Shown here: positions 22,782 through 32,568 of the stretch, in pieces | Layout: each line of letters begins with the position of its first letter | Numbering within the stretch: the stretch's first letter is position 1 | From: a virus | Direction: 5' to 3' (one strand) | DNA length: 51,867 bases | Virus record (IMG/VR): IMGVR_UViG_3300033233_000052 | Location: 1 to 51,867 of that record | Program-made: the position numbers and the translations under genes | The notes under the pieces: generated by a model | What the model saw: the letters and a program-made list of their open reading frames with translations, nothing else | The model's database searches: none | What the model was told of the DNA's origin: nothing

Positions 22782-23300
22782 TCAGTTCTTCCGATCTCTA
22801 CTCATTGCTGCCCTCGCCACCGCAGCCTGGCCGGCGGTCAAGTCCTTCTCCCCCTTTGCTTTCACTGCCGCTGTATAGTAGCCGGCCTGATACAGATTGC
22901 AAAGGTACCGAATAGCATAGCCACGCTGCGAAAACGCCTCCTGCAACGCGAACAGGACACCGGCCCGCTTCGTACGTTTCATGTAGATGTCATAGGCCAT
23001 GACATGCTTCATATCTTTGGCCACGAAATCCCGGATCATGCTCTCATTGGCCTTTTCGCTGCTCTGCCGATACTCAACACCACAAGCCGCATCCTGCCGA
23101 GCCATTGCCTCCTTCGCCTCGTCCTTCAACGACAGCGCCAGAGCATACTCCTGCGACACCTGAAAATACAGGTCGGCCTGCTGTTGCAACGCATCGTCCA
23201 AAGCGTTCTTGTCGATGGCCAGGTAACCTCGGTACTCCGCTACAAACGAATCCTGCGTTTCAGGCAGCGGAGCAACCTCTCTGATAGTAGGGCGTGCCAT
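22782..23300 (-). CDS. Helical phage protein, possible recombination mediator
   Basis: 172 residues, almost all helical, with a coiled-coil-like middle (YLAIDKNALDDALQQQADLY, EEYALAL-type heptads) and a final LYQAGYYTA segment. This family recurs between SSB and clamp-loader genes in phages. A UvsY-like mediator role is an inference from position. It starts MARPTIREV, a copy of the RP-x-I motif. Its ATG overlaps the stop of the clamp-loader gene. The 167 bases downstream (22615-22781) show no convincing gene. Confidence 0.55.
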   Translation of the reverse strand: MARPTIREVAPLPETQDSFVAEYRGYLAIDKNALDDALQQQADLYFQVSQEYALALSLKDEAKEAMARQDAACGVEYRQSSEKANESMIRDFVAKDMKHVMAYDIYMKRTKRAGVLFALQEAFSQRGYAIRYLCNLYQAGYYTAAVKAKGEKDLTAGQAAVARAAMSRDRKN

Positions 23301-25345
23301 TACTCTTCTCCTCCAAAAATTACGGACCCAACGGCCAGGTACAGCGGCGCGTTCTTCTCACTAGCATTGTAAAACGGACTGCTGAAAGCGCCAAGCGTAC
23401 GGAGCAGGCGGACCACTTCTTTGTCACCCTTGGCCTTGGCCAATATAGCTGTGATGTAATTCACAATTACCAGCCGCACGCTCTCTGGATTTACCCCTGC
23501 AAGAGCATCTATTTTCCGCGTCGCTTCGGCCCATGTGCGGCCCTGCGAGCTGACCAGGAAACGGGCGAGGTCTATCGCTTCCACATTCTCGAGAGCTGTT
23601 TCGAGGATCTGCTGTATCTGCTTTTCGTCCTCAAGACCATCTACCATGGAGAGATATTGCAACGCCTGCCGAACGCTACCGTCCGCCTTCCGCGCGATCA
23701 TGCCACAGCATTTATCTGTGGCTACGATCCCTTCCAGTTTGGCAATCTGCTCAAGGTACTCCGCGATCACCTCCCACTGCACCCCTTTGAGGTCGTAGGT
23801 GTGACAGCGAGTGCGGATAGTATCCGGAACCTTGTTTGCCTCTGTGGTGCAAAATGCCCAAAAAACATGATCCGGTGGCTCCTCAATCGACTTGAGCAAG
23901 GATTGCCACGTGGCCTTGGAAAGGGAATGACAATTATGTACTATCAACCCTTCAACAGCATAGGACGGGTGCCCTTCGATTTCAAGATCAATAAATTCCG
24001 CATACTCAATACCGTCGAAAATATCCGTTTGAATACCGCTGTCTCGGATTGCCTCACTTCCTCGTTCAATACTCGTAACACTCGCCATCCTAAGCTGGCC
24101 AGCCTCTGATCTTTCTTCTGGTCTAAAGCCTTCACTCGCGGATTTTGATGCCCTCTCCCATCCACCTCTACAGCCAACTTGATCTTGGGCAATGCTAAAT
24201 CCACCTTGTAATTGGAGGGCCAACCGTCCTCCCCAGGAGAACGCCCTGTATGGATTACAAACTCCAGTTCGCAGCGTAAAAGCCGCTGAAGGGTGAGCTG
24301 CTCTGAGGTGTGCTGGCCATTTCCACCCCTCTTCCCCTTCCATATATGAAGAGAACCCTTTGCCTCCTTTGTGGCCCGCATTTTCTCGAAAACTCCAGGC
24401 ATCCGCGACGGGTTGTTTCTCTTCATCCTCTCGGAACAATCCTTGGCTACCTGTTTCCAAATTTCCGGATTCTCTACTTTTGATCGTTCTACCCCTTCTT
24501 TTACACTTTGTTTTACTTCTTCCGATCGAGGATGAGCTCGCTTCCTCCCCGCTGCAATATTGCCACACTCCCGTGAACAATGCTTTGACCATGACCAATA
24601 CTTCTTCCCACATTCCGGACAAGTATTGGCTCGGCGTTCTTTCTGACACACCAAACAGTAAGTAGTTCCTGGCAAACGACTCACAAAAATCTCTTTGCAT
24701 CTCCGGCAAATGTGCTGGTAATCTGTCTCGAACTTTGCATATTGATTTGACATGGTCAAGTTCTCCCGCAGGTACCCATCCTTCTGGAGTTAGAAATAAA
24801 TGGTCCCGTGAGCAAATAATACTTTTTCCATCTGCCAAACGCAAGCGGATAATCCGTGTCAATGCAACCTTGTTCCTAAATACAGTCCTGACCTGTCGAA
24901 CCCCTTTCAATCCGATAACGAAATCGCCCACTCGAATATCTTTTATGGTCACAAGCCCGGTTGGGGTATTCACCAAAGTATCTGGCGCGAAGCATTCATC
25001 TATGATCACAAATCTTGTCGGCTGTTCACCAAGAGCTTGGTACTGCACCATGCTCGTAACCTGCCGCATATCGTCCACACCGCTATTCGTCGCTGCATCA
25101 ATCTCAAGGATGCCCTCTTCCGCCCCCACGATCTTCGCAATGATCCGCGCAATCGTTGTCTTCCCCGTGCCCGAGGGCCCCGTGAGGAGATATGCGTGCG
25201 GGGTATGCTGCTGAAGCACTGAAGCCAACGACGCCAGCACCGCCTCCTGCCCCAGTACCTCAGTCAAATCCTGGGGGCGATATTTGATGTGCAACGGCCT
25301 GTCATCACGCTTCACTTCTTCCTTCTTAATGCTGGGTCTAGCCAT
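23300..25345 (-). CDS. dnaX: Clamp loader large subunit (DnaX-like) containing an intein
   Basis: 681 codons from the ATG giving MARPSIKKEE; a longer frame to 25396 overlaps the polymerase end and is less likely. The loader parts are 1-117 and the last ~210 residues. They show YRPQDLTEVLGQE, Walker A GPSGTGKTT (56-64), Walker B VIIDE interrupted exactly after DE, then CHSLSKATWQSLLKSIEEPP (the CH-L and SIEEPP segments) and TIRTRCHTY (sensor 1 and Arg finger region). Removing the 354-residue intein leaves about 327 residues, a normal phage clamp loader. The N-terminal MARPSIKK is an RP-x-I motif. It loads the sliding clamp encoded nearby. Confidence 0.9.
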   Translation of the reverse strand: MARPSIKKEEVKRDDRPLHIKYRPQDLTEVLGQEAVLASLASVLQQHTPHAYLLTGPSGTGKTTIARIIAKIVGAEEGILEIDAATNSGVDDMRQVTSMVQYQALGEQPTRFVIIDECFAPDTLVNTPTGLVTIKDIRVGDFVIGLKGVRQVRTVFRNKVALTRIIRLRLADGKSIICSRDHLFLTPEGWVPAGELDHVKSICKVRDRLPAHLPEMQRDFCESFARNYLLFGVSERTPSQYLSGMWEEVLVMVKALFTGVWQYCSGEEASSSSIGRSKTKCKRRGRTIKSRESGNLETGSQGLFREDEEKQPVADAWSFRENAGHKGGKGFSSYMEGEEGWKWPAHLRAAHPSAAFTLRTGVCNPYRAFSWGGRLALQLQGGFSIAQDQVGCRGGWERASKSASEGFRPEERSEAGQLRMASVTSIERGSEAIRDSGIQTDIFDGIEYAEFIDLEIEGHPSYAVEGLIVHNCHSLSKATWQSLLKSIEEPPDHVFWAFCTTEANKVPDTIRTRCHTYDLKGVQWEVIAEYLEQIAKLEGIVATDKCCGMIARKADGSVRQALQYLSMVDGLEDEKQIQQILETALENVEAIDLARFLVSSQGRTWAEATRKIDALAGVNPESVRLVIVNYITAILAKAKGDKEVVRLLRTLGAFSSPFYNASEKNAPLYLAVGSVIFGGEE
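23933..24994 (-). mobile_element. Intein in the clamp loader Walker B site
   Basis: 354 codons from Cys (CFAPDTLVNT, block A) to His-Asn (HPSYAVEGLIVHN, blocks F and G), followed by the +1 Cys of CHSLSK. Block B is visible as DGKSIICSRDHLFLTPEGW. Both splice ends are in frame with the exteins and there is no stop between them. The middle ~270 codons of this frame look like noise, because that DNA encodes an endonuclease in another frame. Insertion into the conserved DE-C-H motif of an ATPase is a typical intein site. Confidence 0.85.
23944..24753 (-). CDS. EDxHD (Vsr-like) homing endonuclease nested out of frame in the intein
   Basis: 269 residues in the +1 frame relative to the clamp loader, with its own ATG and a GGGAG site 9 bases upstream. 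The N-terminus has two or three zinc-finger-like Cys clusters (ICRRCKEIF, YCLVCQ, TCPECGKKY, HCSRECG). A basic helical middle contains a NUMOD-like KMRATKEAKG segment. The C-terminal nuclease has VDLALPKIKLAVEVDGRGH, KDQRLASLGWRVLRVLNEEV, the pattern of very-short-patch-repair-like EDxHD homing enzymes. It begins just after intein block B and ends inside block F. It would promote spread of the intein. Confidence 0.8.
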   Translation of the reverse strand: MSNQYAKFETDYQHICRRCKEIFVSRLPGTTYCLVCQKERRANTCPECGKKYWSWSKHCSRECGNIAAGRKRAHPRSEEVKQSVKEGVERSKVENPEIWKQVAKDCSERMKRNNPSRMPGVFEKMRATKEAKGSLHIWKGKRGGNGQHTSEQLTLQRLLRCELEFVIHTGRSPGEDGWPSNYKVDLALPKIKLAVEVDGRGHQNPRVKALDQKKDQRLASLGWRVLRVLNEEVRQSETAVFKRIFSTVLSMRNLLILKSKGTRPMLLKG

Positions 25346-27962
25346 TTTCTTTCTCCTTGTACCACAATAGCCAATCTGCGTTATCCTGGGAGCCAAACTT
25401 GGCCACCTCCTCTAATGCTCCCCAAGTCTCCCCAATGGCCAATTCTATCACAATGGGAACCGAAATGAAATCGTACCGGCAGTCACACATCTTGTTCGCG
25501 ATGAACTCAATATCCTCTTCTGCTGTTTTCTTCGGCAAATAAAAGGTCAAGTCATCATGCACGTTCAAAATGGGCTGGTACTGCGGCTTGTCCATTTCAT
25601 ACGAACAGAGTGTCAGCTCATCCATCTTATCCAACACCACGTGCGCCGCAGTACCTTGGATCGGGGTATTGGTCAGCTCATTCATCGAGCAGGGACCGTA
25701 CCGCCGCCATCCAAAAAGCGTTTCACAGTAGCCGGTCTTGATGTAGTTCGTTTTAACCTGCTGCTGCCACGTTCGTACCTCAGGGTAGGCACCCCAAAAC
25801 TCCTCCCCGATCTCCTGCGCCACTTCCACAGGCACTCGCAGCATGGCAGCGCATGCCTCCGGCACAGAGCCGTAGAAGCTGGCAAACACCCAGTTATTCT
25901 TAATCTCATTGCGGCCAGTTTTGAATATCAGCTTCTTGTCCTTCGGATCAACCTCAAACTCCTCAATCAGGTAATCTTTCCACCCTGGGGCCTTATCCAA
26001 AAACCGTTGCGTCCAATACGCATGAATATCAAGGCCACCCCACAATTCTTTCTGTAAGCGCTTCGCCTTCGCAGCCATCGCTAAAATACGTGCCTCAATC
26101 TGGCCGTAATCAAGAGAGGCAATGATACAATCCTCAGGTGAGCAAATGATGTTACGGATCTCCCGATTCTTTCGCTTAGGCCAGTTCTGGGCGTTTGGAT
26201 CCTCTGAAGCAAGCCGAGTAGTAATCGTCACAAGATGATTAAAGTTGCTGTGGATCAAACCGTCCGCATAAAGACGGTTTCCAGTGGGAAGATACGGCGC
26301 GACGAACGTCCCCAACAGTTTCTGATTAGAGCGGACGATCAGGGTGCCCTGTGCAGCGGGATGATCTATTTTAACTAGGACCTCTTCCTCCGTACTGTAC
26401 TTCTTCCCCACCAGCATCTGGTCCTTGTACCCCAACTCAATCAATAAATCTTTCACATCCGTCGGGGAGGTGGGCTTGAACTTCTTCTGCCGCTTCTGCT
26501 CCCACGCTTTCACATTTCCGTTCGTCGCAATCTTCGCTTCCGCTGCGGCCATATCCGCGGCAAGGGACTTGCTCAACTGCACGATCATCGCAGTATTGGG
26601 CACCAGCCCCTTCGCCTGCGTCCTGACCATACTGCGAGTTCGCCCCATGAGGAATTCATAGACGTGCATCAAGCCTCGTTCCTGAAGCTCTGCCTCCTGA
26701 ATCAACGAAGCTGCGTGAGTGTATTTGGTATCCCCCCCGTTGTACCGCAACACCTGCTCAAGTGGATACTCGTCCACCCGCGTACGGTCCACGTCACTAA
26801 ACTTTTTCAGCAGGAACCCAAACAACCGCAAACAGACGTCGTCCAACGAATTGATCCGCCTCTCCTCCTTTATCCCTTGCCGAGCGAACAGAGCGTGAGC
26901 CTGAGCCATTGTGTCACCCCACTCGGTCTCAAACAGGAGGTCCTCACCATAGAAATATGACAACCACTCCTGCTCAAACTTCGCGCTGTGACACCACTTC
27001 TTCCCGCTTCCCAACAGGTACTCACGGATGACTTCATCCAGCTGCTTCAGCTGCGGCTCTGTCCACTTCACTTCCCGATGCCGGACAGGGATGGAAACAG
27101 TGTTTTCATAAGTGCCCACAGCAATGGAAAGGATCTTCGCCCCCTTGGCATAGGGGCGCAAACCGTTCGTTTCAATATCCAAACCGTGTGGCCCAACCCC
27201 CACTTCCGCAAGAGCATCAGCAACGTCATCCACTTTCCAACTTGTAATGGACCGGATATTGTGAAATACTGTTTTGGTATCCTCCGGGGAAGGCTGAACA
27301 TAATGCTCGAGGAAATCAAACGCCGCCTGCAACTCACGGGAAAAGAAACGGACCCACTCCTCCCCTTTCTTCTTATCATGCCGCACTCGCGCAACGTACT
27401 CAGGATGTAGCAAGGGGAAGTACCACACCGCGTGCCCACCGATTCGTAGCGGTAACTTCCGACCATGCCAATTCATAATCCCACTCACACCGGTCAGCAA
27501 CTTGAGTGGAATGCCGCCAAAACCAAGGACAATCTTGGGCTTGCTCGCCGCAATGTCATCCTCTTGCAACTTAGAACAGCAAGCCAACTCCAGATCCGTT
27601 GGCGCTCGATCACTTCCATCGGTAACTGGCCTACAACGTACAGAATTATTCCACCGAATACGCTTCAACCATTTTGATGGAATGAACCCACGCAAAAACT
27701 TCCCGCCATCGCTGCTGAATTGAACCCCAGCATTATCATCATCCCAAACTGGGGCCTCACCAAGAATATAAATCAGTGGGTGAGGAGCATCCCCTGTGGG
27801 CAGCATCTTCGGGTGCCGCAGCACAATCTTGTCCAACGGACAGTTGCGGCAGGAAAGAGTCGTAGTGGAGAGGAGCGAAAGCTGCCGCGAGGGCGCGGTA
27901 ACCGCCCTCTCCTCCGAGGAATAAAAGAAGCCCACAGGATTATTTGCTTGTGCCGATACCAC
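25338..27962 (-). CDS. Fusion of uracil-DNA glycosylase-like domain and family A DNA polymerase
   Basis: 874 residues. Residues 35-215 look like a family 4/5 uracil-DNA glycosylase: Cys ligands for an iron-sulphur cluster at 38, 41, 110 and 128/129, GEAPVWDDDNAG at 68-79 and a terminal HPEYVAR. Next comes a 3'-5' exonuclease (GLDIETNGL near 262, KFEQEWL). The rest is polymerase: motif A SLDYGQIEARIL, the O-helix RNEIKNNWVFASFYG and motif C NVHDDL. Such a fusion could read template uracil or repair it at the fork. The GTG start at 27962 overlaps the clamp gene and has no good ribosome binding site, so the start is uncertain by some residues. Confidence 0.85.
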   Translation of the reverse strand: MVSAQANNPVGFFYSSEERAVTAPSRQLSLLSTTTLSCRNCPLDKIVLRHPKMLPTGDAPHPLIYILGEAPVWDDDNAGVQFSSDGGKFLRGFIPSKWLKRIRWNNSVRCRPVTDGSDRAPTDLELACCSKLQEDDIAASKPKIVLGFGGIPLKLLTGVSGIMNWHGRKLPLRIGGHAVWYFPLLHPEYVARVRHDKKKGEEWVRFFSRELQAAFDFLEHYVQPSPEDTKTVFHNIRSITSWKVDDVADALAEVGVGPHGLDIETNGLRPYAKGAKILSIAVGTYENTVSIPVRHREVKWTEPQLKQLDEVIREYLLGSGKKWCHSAKFEQEWLSYFYGEDLLFETEWGDTMAQAHALFARQGIKEERRINSLDDVCLRLFGFLLKKFSDVDRTRVDEYPLEQVLRYNGGDTKYTHAASLIQEAELQERGLMHVYEFLMGRTRSMVRTQAKGLVPNTAMIVQLSKSLAADMAAAEAKIATNGNVKAWEQKRQKKFKPTSPTDVKDLLIELGYKDQMLVGKKYSTEEEVLVKIDHPAAQGTLIVRSNQKLLGTFVAPYLPTGNRLYADGLIHSNFNHLVTITTRLASEDPNAQNWPKRKNREIRNIICSPEDCIIASLDYGQIEARILAMAAKAKRLQKELWGGLDIHAYWTQRFLDKAPGWKDYLIEEFEVDPKDKKLIFKTGRNEIKNNWVFASFYGSVPEACAAMLRVPVEVAQEIGEEFWGAYPEVRTWQQQVKTNYIKTGYCETLFGWRRYGPCSMNELTNTPIQGTAAHVVLDKMDELTLCSYEMDKPQYQPILNVHDDLTFYLPKKTAEEDIEFIANKMCDCRYDFISVPIVIELAIGETWGALEEVAKFGSQDNADWLLWYKEKENG

Positions 27963-29210: not shown

Positions 29211-30230
29211 TCACCCTCCTTTATGTTCCATGAATTTCTTGATGGGCTTGGGGAGCCAAAACGTGCCAAGGTATTTCACCTCCGGAATACCAATCTCTTT
29301 CAACATCGGCAGGCATTGCAAGAACAACTCCTCAGTCTGCGAGGGCTTGCCACTGATAAAGAAATTGAACCGCCAATCAGGGCCGAAGCGTTCCGCGTTC
29401 TGCGCCTGGACGGCCTGCTCCACCTTGTAGATGCAGAAGAGGTTGGCATAGTCGCGGTAGACATACTCCTCCGCCACTTGATCCACTTCCACCCCAAGCT
29501 CTGCCAAATACTGCTGAACCATTGCTTGCACCCGGGGCGTTTGATGCCAATAAGAACCCGAAGCATGTTCACGCCGCTTCGTCATCCACACCGGCCGGGG
29601 CTGACCAGAGAAGTCCCACCCTTCATGCTTGCCGTGTTTTATAACAGGTTTAGGGAGGAGGATTGCCCCATTACGGGAATGAACGAACGCGCTGCTGGCA
29701 TCCACACTTGTCCACGGCCAGCGGGCCATCAAGCTGTAACTTGCCATCGCGAAGCCATGCACCCGCACATTGGGCCGCCCTTTGGCGTCACACATCATTT
29801 TGAACGCGGCGTCGGCCCAGGTGAGGTACTTTGGCTTAGAAAAGAACTGGCCGAGGCCGCCGAGCCCCACATAATCAAACTTGTCCAAGTACTTCTTCAA
29901 CCAAGAATAATCCTCCCCGGGATGCAAGACAGGGATCGGCGTAAGCCCTTGCTTCACCAACTCCATTGTAGTTTCGTAGGAAAGCTTCGGGTCAAAGATC
30001 GCGTCGATGGTAACCACAAATTTGAATTGCTTGAGGTTGGCGTGACAGAACTTCACATACTCATCAAAATACTTCTTGAACGCAGGACTGCGGTAGTAAC
30101 TTGAATCTATCTGCGTATAGATCCGCGCTTGGACGTTGATGTTCTCCCCGCTCACCCCTCCCCCCGTCTTGGGCATCATGAACTTATGGAACAGACTGTG
30201 GGCGCCGCTGTCTAGCGCAAGCGTGAGCAT
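29211..30230 (-). CDS. dpdA: DpdA-like guanine transglycosylase (7-deazaguanine DNA modification)
   Basis: 339 residues. LALDSGAHS at 4-12 corresponds to the substrate-binding Asp of tRNA-guanine transglycosylases, YVGLGGLGQF near 125 to the Gly-rich loop, and TSVDASSAF near 173 to the nucleophile Asp. The zinc site of tRNA enzymes is not seen. In phages, proteins of this type exchange guanine in DNA for a 7-deazaguanine base. Neighbouring QueD-like, FolE and QueE genes supply that base, which strengthens the call. It overlaps the glycosyltransferase gene by one base, so the two are made together. Confidence 0.75.
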   Translation of the reverse strand: MLTLALDSGAHSLFHKFMMPKTGGGVSGENINVQARIYTQIDSSYYRSPAFKKYFDEYVKFCHANLKQFKFVVTIDAIFDPKLSYETTMELVKQGLTPIPVLHPGEDYSWLKKYLDKFDYVGLGGLGQFFSKPKYLTWADAAFKMMCDAKGRPNVRVHGFAMASYSLMARWPWTSVDASSAFVHSRNGAILLPKPVIKHGKHEGWDFSGQPRPVWMTKRREHASGSYWHQTPRVQAMVQQYLAELGVEVDQVAEEYVYRDYANLFCIYKVEQAVQAQNAERFGPDWRFNFFISGKPSQTEELFLQCLPMLKEIGIPEVKYLGTFWLPKPIKKFMEHKGG

Positions 30231-31258
30231 TAACAGTTTCCTCCCATGGCCCGGATCTCGGTCACGATCCGTTCAATCGCGCCATGCCCCAAATCATGCA
30301 ACCGTTTTTCCGTCTGTGCGAAGAGCTGGCCATGAACCATGTGCTCATACCCCTTTGCGTACCGCAGCACCAATTGAACCGCGTGGTCCATATTGTTGTA
30401 TTGAAACGCCGGGTCGTAGACATCAGGATAGGCAAGCCGCGAGGGCACCACCGGGATACAGCCGTGATGCGTAGCCTCCTGCATCGAGATCCCCCATGTT
30501 TCCTGCTGCGCTGCGGAAAACGCAATCTTGGCATGAGACAAAAGATCATAATACTGTTCCTTCGTCCGCGGGATCGCTTGAGATTTGATAAACTGCCAGC
30601 CAGGCAATTCCTTCGCCAACTTCTCCGCGAGCTGATCAAATACCTCTGGCTGCTTCTCTGGGGCCAAACGATGCGGGAAGACCACAATGTTTTTCTTCTT
30701 CCCTGCGGACCACTCCGTATTTGGCAAGAGGAATGGAAATCCTACCTTGCGGATCTTATCCCCGGGCACCATCCGCTTCGACCGCAGCAGGCGCTCGTGG
30801 AAGTTGCTGTGAAGGAAAATCCTGTCCACGCCGCGAAACCAAGCCTGCTCTAAATCTTTCCCCCAGCTATCCATCCCCTGCCGTGTAAGGAAATCCCACG
30901 GATCGTAGGTGCCGGCGTGGAGGTACCCGCAGATATAGAAAGGCAACTTAAGGGCATCACGCACATAGAACAAAGCCTCGAGGCCTGGAAACCAGACGTC
31001 GTGTAAAAAGACCACATCGTGAGGTTTTACATGCCCACCTGCCACCTGCTCAAGGAACAGTTCAATCTGCTTCCCCTTGTAGATATTCGTGTGGATGGCG
31101 TCCAGGAATTGCCCGCGCGCTATGCGTTCCGCAGGCTTATACAGAGGATCAACCCGATCCCACACGACCCCCAATCGGTTATACTCCTCCGCGAACCACT
31201 TCCGCCACTGCGCACTATATCGCATATCGAGCGGCTCTATCGGAAAATCATATAACAT
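30230..31258 (-). CDS. GT-B (GT4-like) glycosyltransferase
   Basis: 342 residues with two Rossmann-like halves. The C-terminal half has FPHRLAPEKQPEVFDQL and an E-x7-E motif in ETWGISMQEATHHGCIPVV, typical of GT4 retaining enzymes that use nucleotide sugars. No membrane segment is present. The gene is coupled by TAATG to the DpdA-like gene and lies between it and the QueD-like and FolE genes. It may glycosylate the modified base. Another target, such as a virion or host glycan, cannot be excluded. Confidence 0.75.
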   Translation of the reverse strand: MLYDFPIEPLDMRYSAQWRKWFAEEYNRLGVVWDRVDPLYKPAERIARGQFLDAIHTNIYKGKQIELFLEQVAGGHVKPHDVVFLHDVWFPGLEALFYVRDALKLPFYICGYLHAGTYDPWDFLTRQGMDSWGKDLEQAWFRGVDRIFLHSNFHERLLRSKRMVPGDKIRKVGFPFLLPNTEWSAGKKKNIVVFPHRLAPEKQPEVFDQLAEKLAKELPGWQFIKSQAIPRTKEQYYDLLSHAKIAFSAAQQETWGISMQEATHHGCIPVVPSRLAYPDVYDPAFQYNNMDHAVQLVLRYAKGYEHMVHGQLFAQTEKRLHDLGHGAIERIVTEIRAMGGNC

Positions 31259-31261
31259 GGT

Positions 31262-31624
31262 CTACCCCTCCCCCTTGAAATAAAGGATGGCGCCATTCTC
31301 CCCATCCTCCGATACCTCTACCTCCGCCAGTACCCCCTCACCATACTGTACGAAGAACTCTGCAATCTGCTGTGCAATATCTTCACAAGACAGCTCAAAC
31401 TTCTTCTCCTCGAACGTGCGCCGCACGAAGAGAATAAGGCTGTGCTGCATCATGAAGAATTCCAGCTCACGCTGATTGTGTGACACCCGCAAGCTGACCT
31501 TCACATGGAACAAGTGCCGATGCCAGTTCCGGAGGAAAGCTACTTCATGTGGCGCATCTTTCCATCGGTGATACGCTGCAAAGCGTGTGGTCACGTAGAT
31601 GAGAGTAGAGATGGGCTGAATCAT
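31262..31624 (-). CDS. QueD-like T-fold protein (second copy)
   Basis: 120 residues. FAAYHRW near residue 14, then RNWHRHLFHVKVSLRVSH gives the H and H-x-H-type zinc pattern of pterin synthases, followed by LSCEDIA and EVSEDGENGA as in QueD-like proteins. It is the shorter of two T-fold proteins in the window. It overlaps the FolE fusion gene by 4 bases. It could perform the second step of 7-deazaguanine synthesis, or be a modified T-fold enzyme acting on a related product. Confidence 0.6.
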   Translation of the reverse strand: MIQPISTLIYVTTRFAAYHRWKDAPHEVAFLRNWHRHLFHVKVSLRVSHNQRELEFFMMQHSLILFVRRTFEEKKFELSCEDIAQQIAEFFVQYGEGVLAEVEVSEDGENGAILYFKGEG

Positions 31625-32568
31625 ATACCGCTCCGCGTGAACGACAAGAACTCTGCTCGCGTCTGCGGATCTTCCTTAATACGGCCACGCAGAGAAGACG
31701 TGGTAGTTATCGTGCCCATCTTCTGAATCCCCCGAGACTCCAGACAGAGGTGCCGGCACTGCAAAATGACCCCCACCCCTTTCGGCTTCAAATGCTCCTG
31801 CAATGCGTCAGCAATCTGAACGGTCAGGCGCTCCTGTACCTGCAGACGGCGAGCAAACACTTCAATAAGCCGGGGGATCTTGGATAAGCCTACTACCTTC
31901 CCATTGGGGATATACCCAACGTGGGCGCACCCAAAAATCGCGGCCATATGATGTTCACAATGAGAAAACACAGGGGTTCCGCTGACCACTATCATTTCAT
32001 CGTACTTTTCCCCGCCGTCCTCAAACTCCTTGAGAACGGCCTTAGGATCCTGACCATACCCTGCGGTCCATTCCTGCCACGCTTTAAGGAATCGGGCTGG
32101 AGTCTCACGAAGCCCACCTCTCTTTGGATTCTCCCCAATGAACTCCAACAAGCGAATTGGGATATCATCCGCACTGTGGACCGCATCGCCTTCCCACGGA
32201 AAAATCACATATTCATCCGCGGGGAGCATTGCACCAAAAAATGAATTTAGACCGTCGGCAGCATCCTCTTTCGCTCTCTTGGTGAAAAGACTAGCGAACA
32301 GTCGCCTCTCCCCTTGATATCGTGCCCGAGTGGCCCCAGATGCAACCAAATCATCAATAATGAGGTTGGCCTCCTCCGGGGTATCAACTACAGAGTGAAC
32401 AGGAGTACCGTGATTAGAAGCCGCAAGTGCCAAAAGAATAGCTGCACTTCGCCCCCCTCGTGGCACCCCGTACACCCGAAGGCGTTCACTGCCCCCCAGC
32501 TTCGTAAGAAGTTGGCAGGCAGCCGAATAAGCCTCCCCAAACGAAAGAGTTCTCACCCTGTACCCCAC
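31621..32568 (-). CDS. folE: Phosphoribosyltransferase-GTP cyclohydrolase I (FolE) fusion
   Basis: 315 residues with two domains. Residues 1-105 form a phosphoribosyltransferase: VYGVPRGG near 33 and the PRPP loop IIDDLVASGATR near 70-81. Residues 125-310 are GTP cyclohydrolase I: the zinc residues in SHCEHHM and QCRHLCLESRG, plus VGYIPNGKVVGLSKIPRL and QVQERLTVQIADAL. FolE makes dihydroneopterin triphosphate from GTP, the first step to 7-deazaguanine. The attached domain may recycle guanine released by DNA base exchange. That link is inference. Confidence 0.85.
   Translation of the reverse strand: MGYRVRTLSFGEAYSAACQLLTKLGGSERLRVYGVPRGGRSAAILLALAASNHGTPVHSVVDTPEEANLIIDDLVASGATRARYQGERRLFASLFTKRAKEDAADGLNSFFGAMLPADEYVIFPWEGDAVHSADDIPIRLLEFIGENPKRGGLRETPARFLKAWQEWTAGYGQDPKAVLKEFEDGGEKYDEMIVVSGTPVFSHCEHHMAAIFGCAHVGYIPNGKVVGLSKIPRLIEVFARRLQVQERLTVQIADALQEHLKPKGVGVILQCRHLCLESRGIQKMGTITTTSSLRGRIKEDPQTRAEFLSFTRSGI

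Follow-up and report, generated by a model that had tools for sequence, protein, structure and literature searches.

The DnaX-like clamp-loader gene of the phage studied here very probably carries a mobile cis-splicing intein whose homing endonuclease is a separately translated gene nested within it in the +1 frame, in contrast to the in-frame endonuclease domain expected of most inteins. The gene lies in a window that comprises the whole analysed stretch of 51,867 nucleotides (IMG/VR record IMGVR_UViG_3300033233_000052). Splicing, separate translation, cleavage and homing are inferences. In the proposed mechanism, ribosomes initiating at the clamp-loader start would traverse the whole insert, generating a precursor in which two intein halves (residues 1–89 and about 299–354) flank a mostly disordered linker; the halves would fold as one Hint domain that excises itself, joining DE to CH and restoring the Walker B motif. 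Ribosomes initiating at an internal Shine-Dalgarno sequence and ATG would produce a free Vsr-like nuclease, which would cut intein-free alleles at the Walker-B-coding site, with repair copying the intein in. The intein frame would be kept open through the third bases of the nuclease codons alone, NNT before AA, AG or GA being exchanged for its C-ending synonym.

The layout of the locus is directly supported by the sequence and is summarized in Table 1. The clamp-loader gene is stop-free throughout its single frame of 681 codons, as the earlier note had stated, and its identity rests on matches to phrog_5846 (3.6e-66) and TIGR02397 dnaX (4.6e-58); an upstream TTG at 25396 is an alternative start. 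The intein extends from C118 to N471 of the 681-aa product and ends in HN/CHSLS, a slash marking the junction here and below. The nuclease frame begins 4 nt after block B and terminates within block F, the placement described previously, and the coordinates reported for the intein prove exact to the base. Apart from the EDxHD label of the nuclease, discussed below, the factual claims of the earlier note all hold. Elsewhere in the window, positions 25338–27962 encode a family A DNA polymerase with an N-terminal uracil-DNA glycosylase fusion (UDG 9e-14, DNA_pol_A 1.3e-53), and positions 29211–32568 contain GTP cyclohydrolase I and a tRNA-guanine transglycosylase-like gene, which suggests from gene content that the phage may carry 7-deazaguanine DNA modification.

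Table 1. Features of the clamp-loader locus, in window positions
Feature	Positions	Strand	Basis
Host gene: DnaX-like clamp loader subunit, 681 aa with intein	23300..25345	-	open frame; profile matches
Walker B motif FVIIDE, abutting the insertion point DE/C on its upstream side	24995..25012	-	DE/C in 131/157 distinct loci
Intein, 354 aa, Cys1 ... His-Asn/Cys+1	23933..24994	-	junctions; Hint fold (AlphaFold/Foldseek); gp41-1 profile 2.4e-18
Intein block A (CFAPDTLVNTPTG)	24956..24994	-	conserved in family alignment
Intein block B and following segment (CSRDHLFLTPEGWVPAGEL)	24758..24814	-	conserved in family alignment
Linker of about 209 aa in the intein frame, encoded by the DNA of the nuclease; no stops, mostly predicted disordered, mostly unconserved	24101..24727	-	AlphaFold; alignment; codon positions in relatives
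Intein block F/G (FIDLEIEGHPSYAVEGLIVHN); contains the nuclease stop	23933..23995	-	sequence reading
Nested gene for a putative homing endonuclease of 269 aa, in +1 to the intein frame; stops at 23944-23946	23944..24753	-	ORF; DUF559 1.4e-11; AlphaFold pLDDT 89.9
Shine-Dalgarno-like GGGAG, 9 nt 5' of the nuclease ATG	24763..24767	-	sequence; Shine-Dalgarno enrichment in relatives
Zinc-ribbon-like CxxC pairs, nuclease residues 16-63	24565..24708	-	C45, C48, C59 and C63 nearly invariant
Nuclease core, residues 182-230; invariant D185, E196, D198, H202, D211 and GWxVLRxxN	24064..24210	-	alignment; fold match
Dual-coding segment: one set of bases giving both the intein strand MASVTSIERG and the nuclease motif WRVLRVLNEE	24059..24088	-	codon bias; modelled strand

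Relatives were sought with the nuclease and its alignments in IMG/VR, GTDB genomes and phage records, and a nuclease profile built from related loci yielded 283 loci carrying the nuclease. At 255 of these (157 distinct at the clustering used), the nuclease lies within a continuous frame bearing the intein C-terminal block, always in the same +1 phase. This layout, which the window shares with each of the six relatives found first, occurs in both clamp loaders and SF2 helicases, including those of complete Vibrio, Pseudomonas and Corynebacterium phages, and among annotated isolates it is found in CP-T1, phi673, MR14 and Vibrio phage 1.194.O. As judged from these sequences, the nested layout is the standard form of the window's nuclease family, and the earlier impression of an isolated oddity gives way to an arrangement that recurs in at least 157 distinct phage loci. 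Insertion among the 157 is nearly always at Walker B (DE/C in 131, AH/C in 9), the HN/C junction is present in most, and the exteins (n=150) comprise 84 with a Helicase_C match and 45 of the clamp-loader family. Three nested inteins (L056, L073, L088) follow DEAH in very large phage proteins, the host frame being open for >7.5 kb in the stretch examined. The published annotations of CP-T1, phi673, MR14 and 1.194.O record only the helicase over the nested region, and those of L009, L010 and L011 record only a helicase or a 'coil containing protein', the nested nuclease being missing.

The nuclease possesses initiation signals of its own, in agreement with the earlier claim of a separate start and ribosome binding site: the ATG at 24753 opens a frame of 810 nt, with GGGAG 9 nt upstream, and a TTG in the same frame at 24759 could serve as the start instead. 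A Shine-Dalgarno match of at least 5 nt precedes the best candidate nuclease start in 77/157 loci, compared with 25/157 at internal starts, and because of this enrichment separate initiation of the nuclease is supported across the family and inferred for the window. Programmed +1 frameshifting out of the intein frame, generating an IntN–nuclease fusion without any internal initiation, would be compatible with the invariable +1 phase and with the presence of such a match in only about half of the loci. It nevertheless retains only a small residual probability in the face of the 3-fold enrichment over internal starts, the strong Shine-Dalgarno sequence and ATG found in many loci (for example AAGGAGGT...ATG), and the positioning of both signals exactly at the ORF start in the window; moreover, no shared slippery site was noted, albeit without a systematic search.

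On sequence and predicted structure, the separately initiated nuclease is best described as DUF559/Vsr-like; both its sequence and its fold resemble the EDxHD enzyme I-Bth0305I, and also Vsr, more weakly than DUF559. DUF559 is its best Pfam family, and the AlphaFold model (Table 1) matches I-Bth0305I (3r3p, TM 0.73), a Neisseria DUF559 protein (3hrl, 0.66) and Vsr (1vsr, 0.38), the TM values being given by target, with E-values of about 0.01 to 0.06. Specifically, the catalytic domain matches 3r3p with probability 1.00 and E 0.012, while profile comparison with I-Bth0305I gives 6.7e-04, the I-Bth0305I chain aligning without the D and H of EVDGxxH. The earlier designation as an EDxHD Vsr-like enzyme is thus borne out in its fold and only partly supported as EDxHD, DUF559 being the best family and the two EVDGxxH residues being absent from I-Bth0305I. 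The zinc fingers ascribed to the nuclease correspond to two CxxC pairs that resemble a zinc ribbon. Free-standing viral relatives of the nuclease are found at L075:3324–3947, at L081:1531–2148, where the gene lies directly upstream of a helicase-like gene, and in L184 and L194.

The insert itself is predicted to adopt a Hint splicing fold composed of two confident halves joined by a mostly disordered linker of about 200 aa, from which its splicing is inferred. In the AlphaFold model, residues 1–89 and 299–354 reach block-mean pLDDT values of 82–97, and the intervening residues lie mostly below 50 (94–100, 113–120 and 151–296). The best PDB match of this model in Foldseek is the gp41-1 intein (4.3e-07), other inteins also being matched, and profile comparison likewise aligns the insert with gp41-1 (Table 1). 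In-frame splice blocks at both ends, previously read as C...HN-C, are confirmed as C118...HN/C, and the junction residues C118 and H470-N471/C472 correspond to the Cys1/HN-Cys cis-splicing type and are all present. Block B reads CSRDH and not the textbook TxxH, so that the His is present and the usual Thr absent; Ser is common at this Thr position in the family alignment.

Because close relatives of the window are unknown, its nearest nuclease relative being 48% identical, the comparison of selection in each frame proposed in the earlier note was taken from Vibrio phages; when viral contigs were searched with the clamp loader minus its intein, no relative could be confirmed. Full-length nested inteins 2.6–5.6% apart occur in the helicases of three Vibrio phages, 1.194.O, K391 and 1.088.O. 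Between 1.194.O and 1.088.O, the overlap shows 37 differences, 32 of them on the third base of a nuclease codon. Within the nuclease body, changes that are silent in the nuclease and alter the intein have a rate per site of 0.21, those silent in the intein alone 0.00, and those that alter both 0.009. In more distant pairs, the nuclease is 54% identical compared with 32% for the intein reading of the same DNA. On the basis of these rates and identities, it is strongly supported that purifying selection keeps the nuclease frame in these relatives while most of the linker is free to change.

The earlier description of the linker as noise applies to most of its length and fails over the last ~30 nuclease codons, which appear to code for functional protein in both frames, the intein product being a real strand of the splicing domain. 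In the family consensus, nuclease GWxVLRFTN reads V-E-S-V-E-I-Y in the intein frame, and codon usage at the dual-coded sites is strongly skewed relative to that elsewhere, with GGG at 65/79 versus 332/1007 (p 6e-18), TTG at 59/73 versus 379/1318 (5e-19), AGR at 63/80 versus 470/1043 (4e-9) and GTR at 70/72 versus 510/775 (4e-10); these p values are optimistic because the sequences were treated as independent. Additionally, excess conservation of the intein reading peaks at the nuclease end, the mean z being -6 to -9 in the last segments versus -0.7 to -2.7 earlier. The upstream intein strand is supported by this codon bias, by the AlphaFold model of the window intein, which places a strand at residues 299–308, and by a similar strand position in nuclease-less inteins of the same site, where RIKSARYV, read from the sequences, apparently matches. 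A phmmer search with the IntC consensus matched known inteins weakly and in block F alone, and does not prove the strand. The window's version of the dual-coded strand, MASVTSI, departs from the more typical family consensus VESVEIY.

This atypical strand, together with the off-consensus block B CSRDH, is what could be cited for a decaying intein, in which the nuclease frame would be a relic or the splicing domain would be dead in the window phage. Such decay is a slim prospect: the junction residues are intact, the ends are modelled with confidence, the window nuclease retains every invariant residue and purifying selection acts on the nuclease in relatives, while an unspliced clamp loader, with its Walker B motif cut in two, is unlikely to work.

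Maintenance of an intact intein reading across the nuclease departs markedly from chance expectation. Reshuffling of synonymous codons in the window nuclease predicts 14.7 intein-frame stops where 0 are observed, and 0/600 shuffles are open. Under the same null, 80 distinct loci would contain 815 intein-frame stops and contain 0, whereas the third frame holds 1431 compared with 1285 expected; an unbroken intein frame was a condition for including these loci, which only a few of the 102 examined failed to satisfy. Across the 255 nested loci (157 distinct), 0 stops occur in the intein frame versus 2520 in the other alternative frame, and the free-standing relatives (L075, L081, L184, L194 and bacterial DUF559 proteins) for the most part carry stops in both frames in the usual way. 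The codon basis of this pattern is simple. Each intein codon begins on a nuclease third base, and the only source of a stop is a nuclease codon with T as its last base and AA, AG or GA immediately after it. Such a T can be replaced by C without altering the nuclease in every case, NNT and NNC being invariably synonymous, and any protein can therefore be encoded with the intein frame open. Nested nuclease codons preceding AA, AG or GA accordingly end in T in 0 cases and in C in 2212, compared with 5579 T and 3220 C elsewhere, while free-standing relatives use NNT in 139/305 such positions. In the other alternative frame, a TGA is unavoidable wherever Met precedes K, N, T, I or M, and such a pair occurs in 145/158 nucleases, which could explain the constant +1 phase; common descent would give the same phase.

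The continuity of this frame also bears on a fractured gene, in which the host gene would be divided, the intein would act in trans and nothing but coincidence would leave the linker frame open. In its favor, the window intein shares a clade with gp41-1, a naturally split intein; breaks in gp41-1 loci fall at the same point, with an endonuclease gene between the halves, and one nested contig (L085) has an in-frame stop followed by an ATG. A fractured gene is nonetheless very improbable, as the frame runs unbroken through 157 distinct loci and stops are avoided to an extreme degree, and separate halves would leave no reason to keep it open. For the window itself a split gene is rejected, the host gene occupying one ORF here as in the 157 loci. 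Interruption of the intein frame in relatives, named earlier as a potential refutation, is confined to the contig represented by L085 and L224, the sole nested locus observed with an intein-frame stop: a TGA at L085:3293–3295 lies just inside the nuclease, with an ATG 6 nt further, and possibly reflects either the emergence of a natural split intein or a mistake in this single contig. The remaining refutation named earlier, a sequencing or assembly frameshift concealing a nuclease that is truly in frame as in ordinary inteins, deserves virtually no weight, since a one-base indel could shift a frame but the same +1 arrangement recurs in hundreds of independent contigs (157 distinct loci) and complete isolate genomes, with 0 intein-frame stops where hundreds are expected, and two compensating errors would be needed each time because the flanks are in frame with each other.

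Mobility of the nested intein is indicated by its relatives. In Vibrio phages, the DE/CHH site is occupied by a nested intein in CP-T1 and 1.194.O, by nuclease-less inteins of about 150 aa in K389, K459 and K453, and is empty in vB_VchM-138 and 234P10. The nuclease-less inteins of K389, K459 and K453 (L124, L126 and L130) lie at the exact helicase site of the nested ones, and in K459 and K453 the next gene is annotated as an endonuclease. The exteins of CP-T1 (occupied) and vB_VchM-138 (empty) are 96.4% identical, and the empty allele has Ala in place of the Cys required for splicing in the occupied allele. Between 1.194.O and 1.088.O, the inteins differ by 4.2% and the exteins by 22–24%. A quick nuclease tree contains ~5 changes of host between clamp loader and helicase, 3 of them forced by well-supported branches. 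Collectively, the empty sites, the nuclease-less inteins and the greater similarity of inteins than of their flanks indicate homing in these relatives; for the window homing is inferred, as is cleavage. The earlier proposal that a free-standing nuclease gene invaded a mini-intein remains plausible, as free-standing relatives and nuclease-less inteins both exist; the order of events is not shown.

As a tentative generalization, these loci may belong to a widespread class of phage inteins that could be called 'entangled', nuclease and intein having functional codons as well as space in common and the ~30-codon stretch serving at once as the end of the nuclease core and as a strand of the splicing fold. 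Through this configuration, a selfish nuclease would be tied to an essential replication gene, because most nuclease indels would break that gene too, and the path to natural split inteins would be short, because the linker is free to change and one stop with a nearby start yields a fractured gene; L085 may show such a step. The loci provide many natural examples of genes that overlap on one strand over hundreds of codons and in which function and selection are separable for each frame, and they illustrate how an endonuclease gene can inhabit an intein without becoming its domain. They also offer a concrete sister state to split inteins, which are major biotechnology tools and whose origin is an open question. 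In practical terms, annotations of such phages miss the nested nuclease, and intein halves with a natural, seemingly dispensable linker of ~200 aa are candidate new split inteins.

A literature search found no description of a contiguous intein with an out-of-frame nuclease, although priority is not excluded. Canonical large inteins such as PI-SceI contain an in-frame LAGLIDADG or HNH domain in the same polypeptide. The window intein resembles them in its Hint domain, in the position of the endonuclease between blocks B and F and in its insertion into a conserved motif of an essential gene, and differs from them in having a mostly disordered linker and an endonuclease encoded by a second gene in another frame. 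The window nuclease has its catalytic-domain fold and DUF559 sequence in common with I-Bth0305I and the Vsr/DUF559 enzymes, and is distinguished from them by its N-terminal zinc-ribbon part and by its location in the +1 frame of an intein. A further parallel is the ShiLan domain, an out-of-frame HNH endonuclease in a phage DNA methylase, where the host frame reads through without stops and a patchy distribution suggests homing, and where the insert has no splicing domain, is thought to remain in the protein and has no detectable ribosome binding site (Arsenault, Gosselin, Gogarten 2025, PMC11855218). Both systems place an endonuclease in an alternative frame of an insert with a stop-free host frame; unlike ShiLan, the window nuclease is DUF559/Vsr-like and resides inside a complete intein with a Hint domain, and a Shine-Dalgarno match of at least 5 nt is found in half of its family's loci.

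The closest comparison is with fractured genes bearing split inteins and inserted endonuclease genes, which Dassa and colleagues reportedly described in 2009. Shared features are the phage replication gene, the intein clade (gp41-1 being the best PDB match) and the placement, between the two intein halves, of an endonuclease gene that has its own start; moreover, the break points of gp41-1 loci, where IntN ends after block B and IntC starts at the strand KKILKIEEL, are similar to the ends of the nested nuclease. Whereas the host gene of a fractured locus consists of two ORFs joined by trans splicing, the window frame runs unbroken and is overlapped by the nuclease in +1. In gp41-1 loci read by eye, a GIY-YIG-like ORF lies between the intein halves; specifically, in L293–L342 it follows IntN, and an extra ORF that varies between contigs precedes IntC. 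Direct conversion of nested into gp41-1 loci is unsupported, the window's nuclease family having been found in 0/50 gp41-1-type loci searched for it. As far as the sequences allow, the nested and gp41-1 types look like siblings that carry different nucleases.
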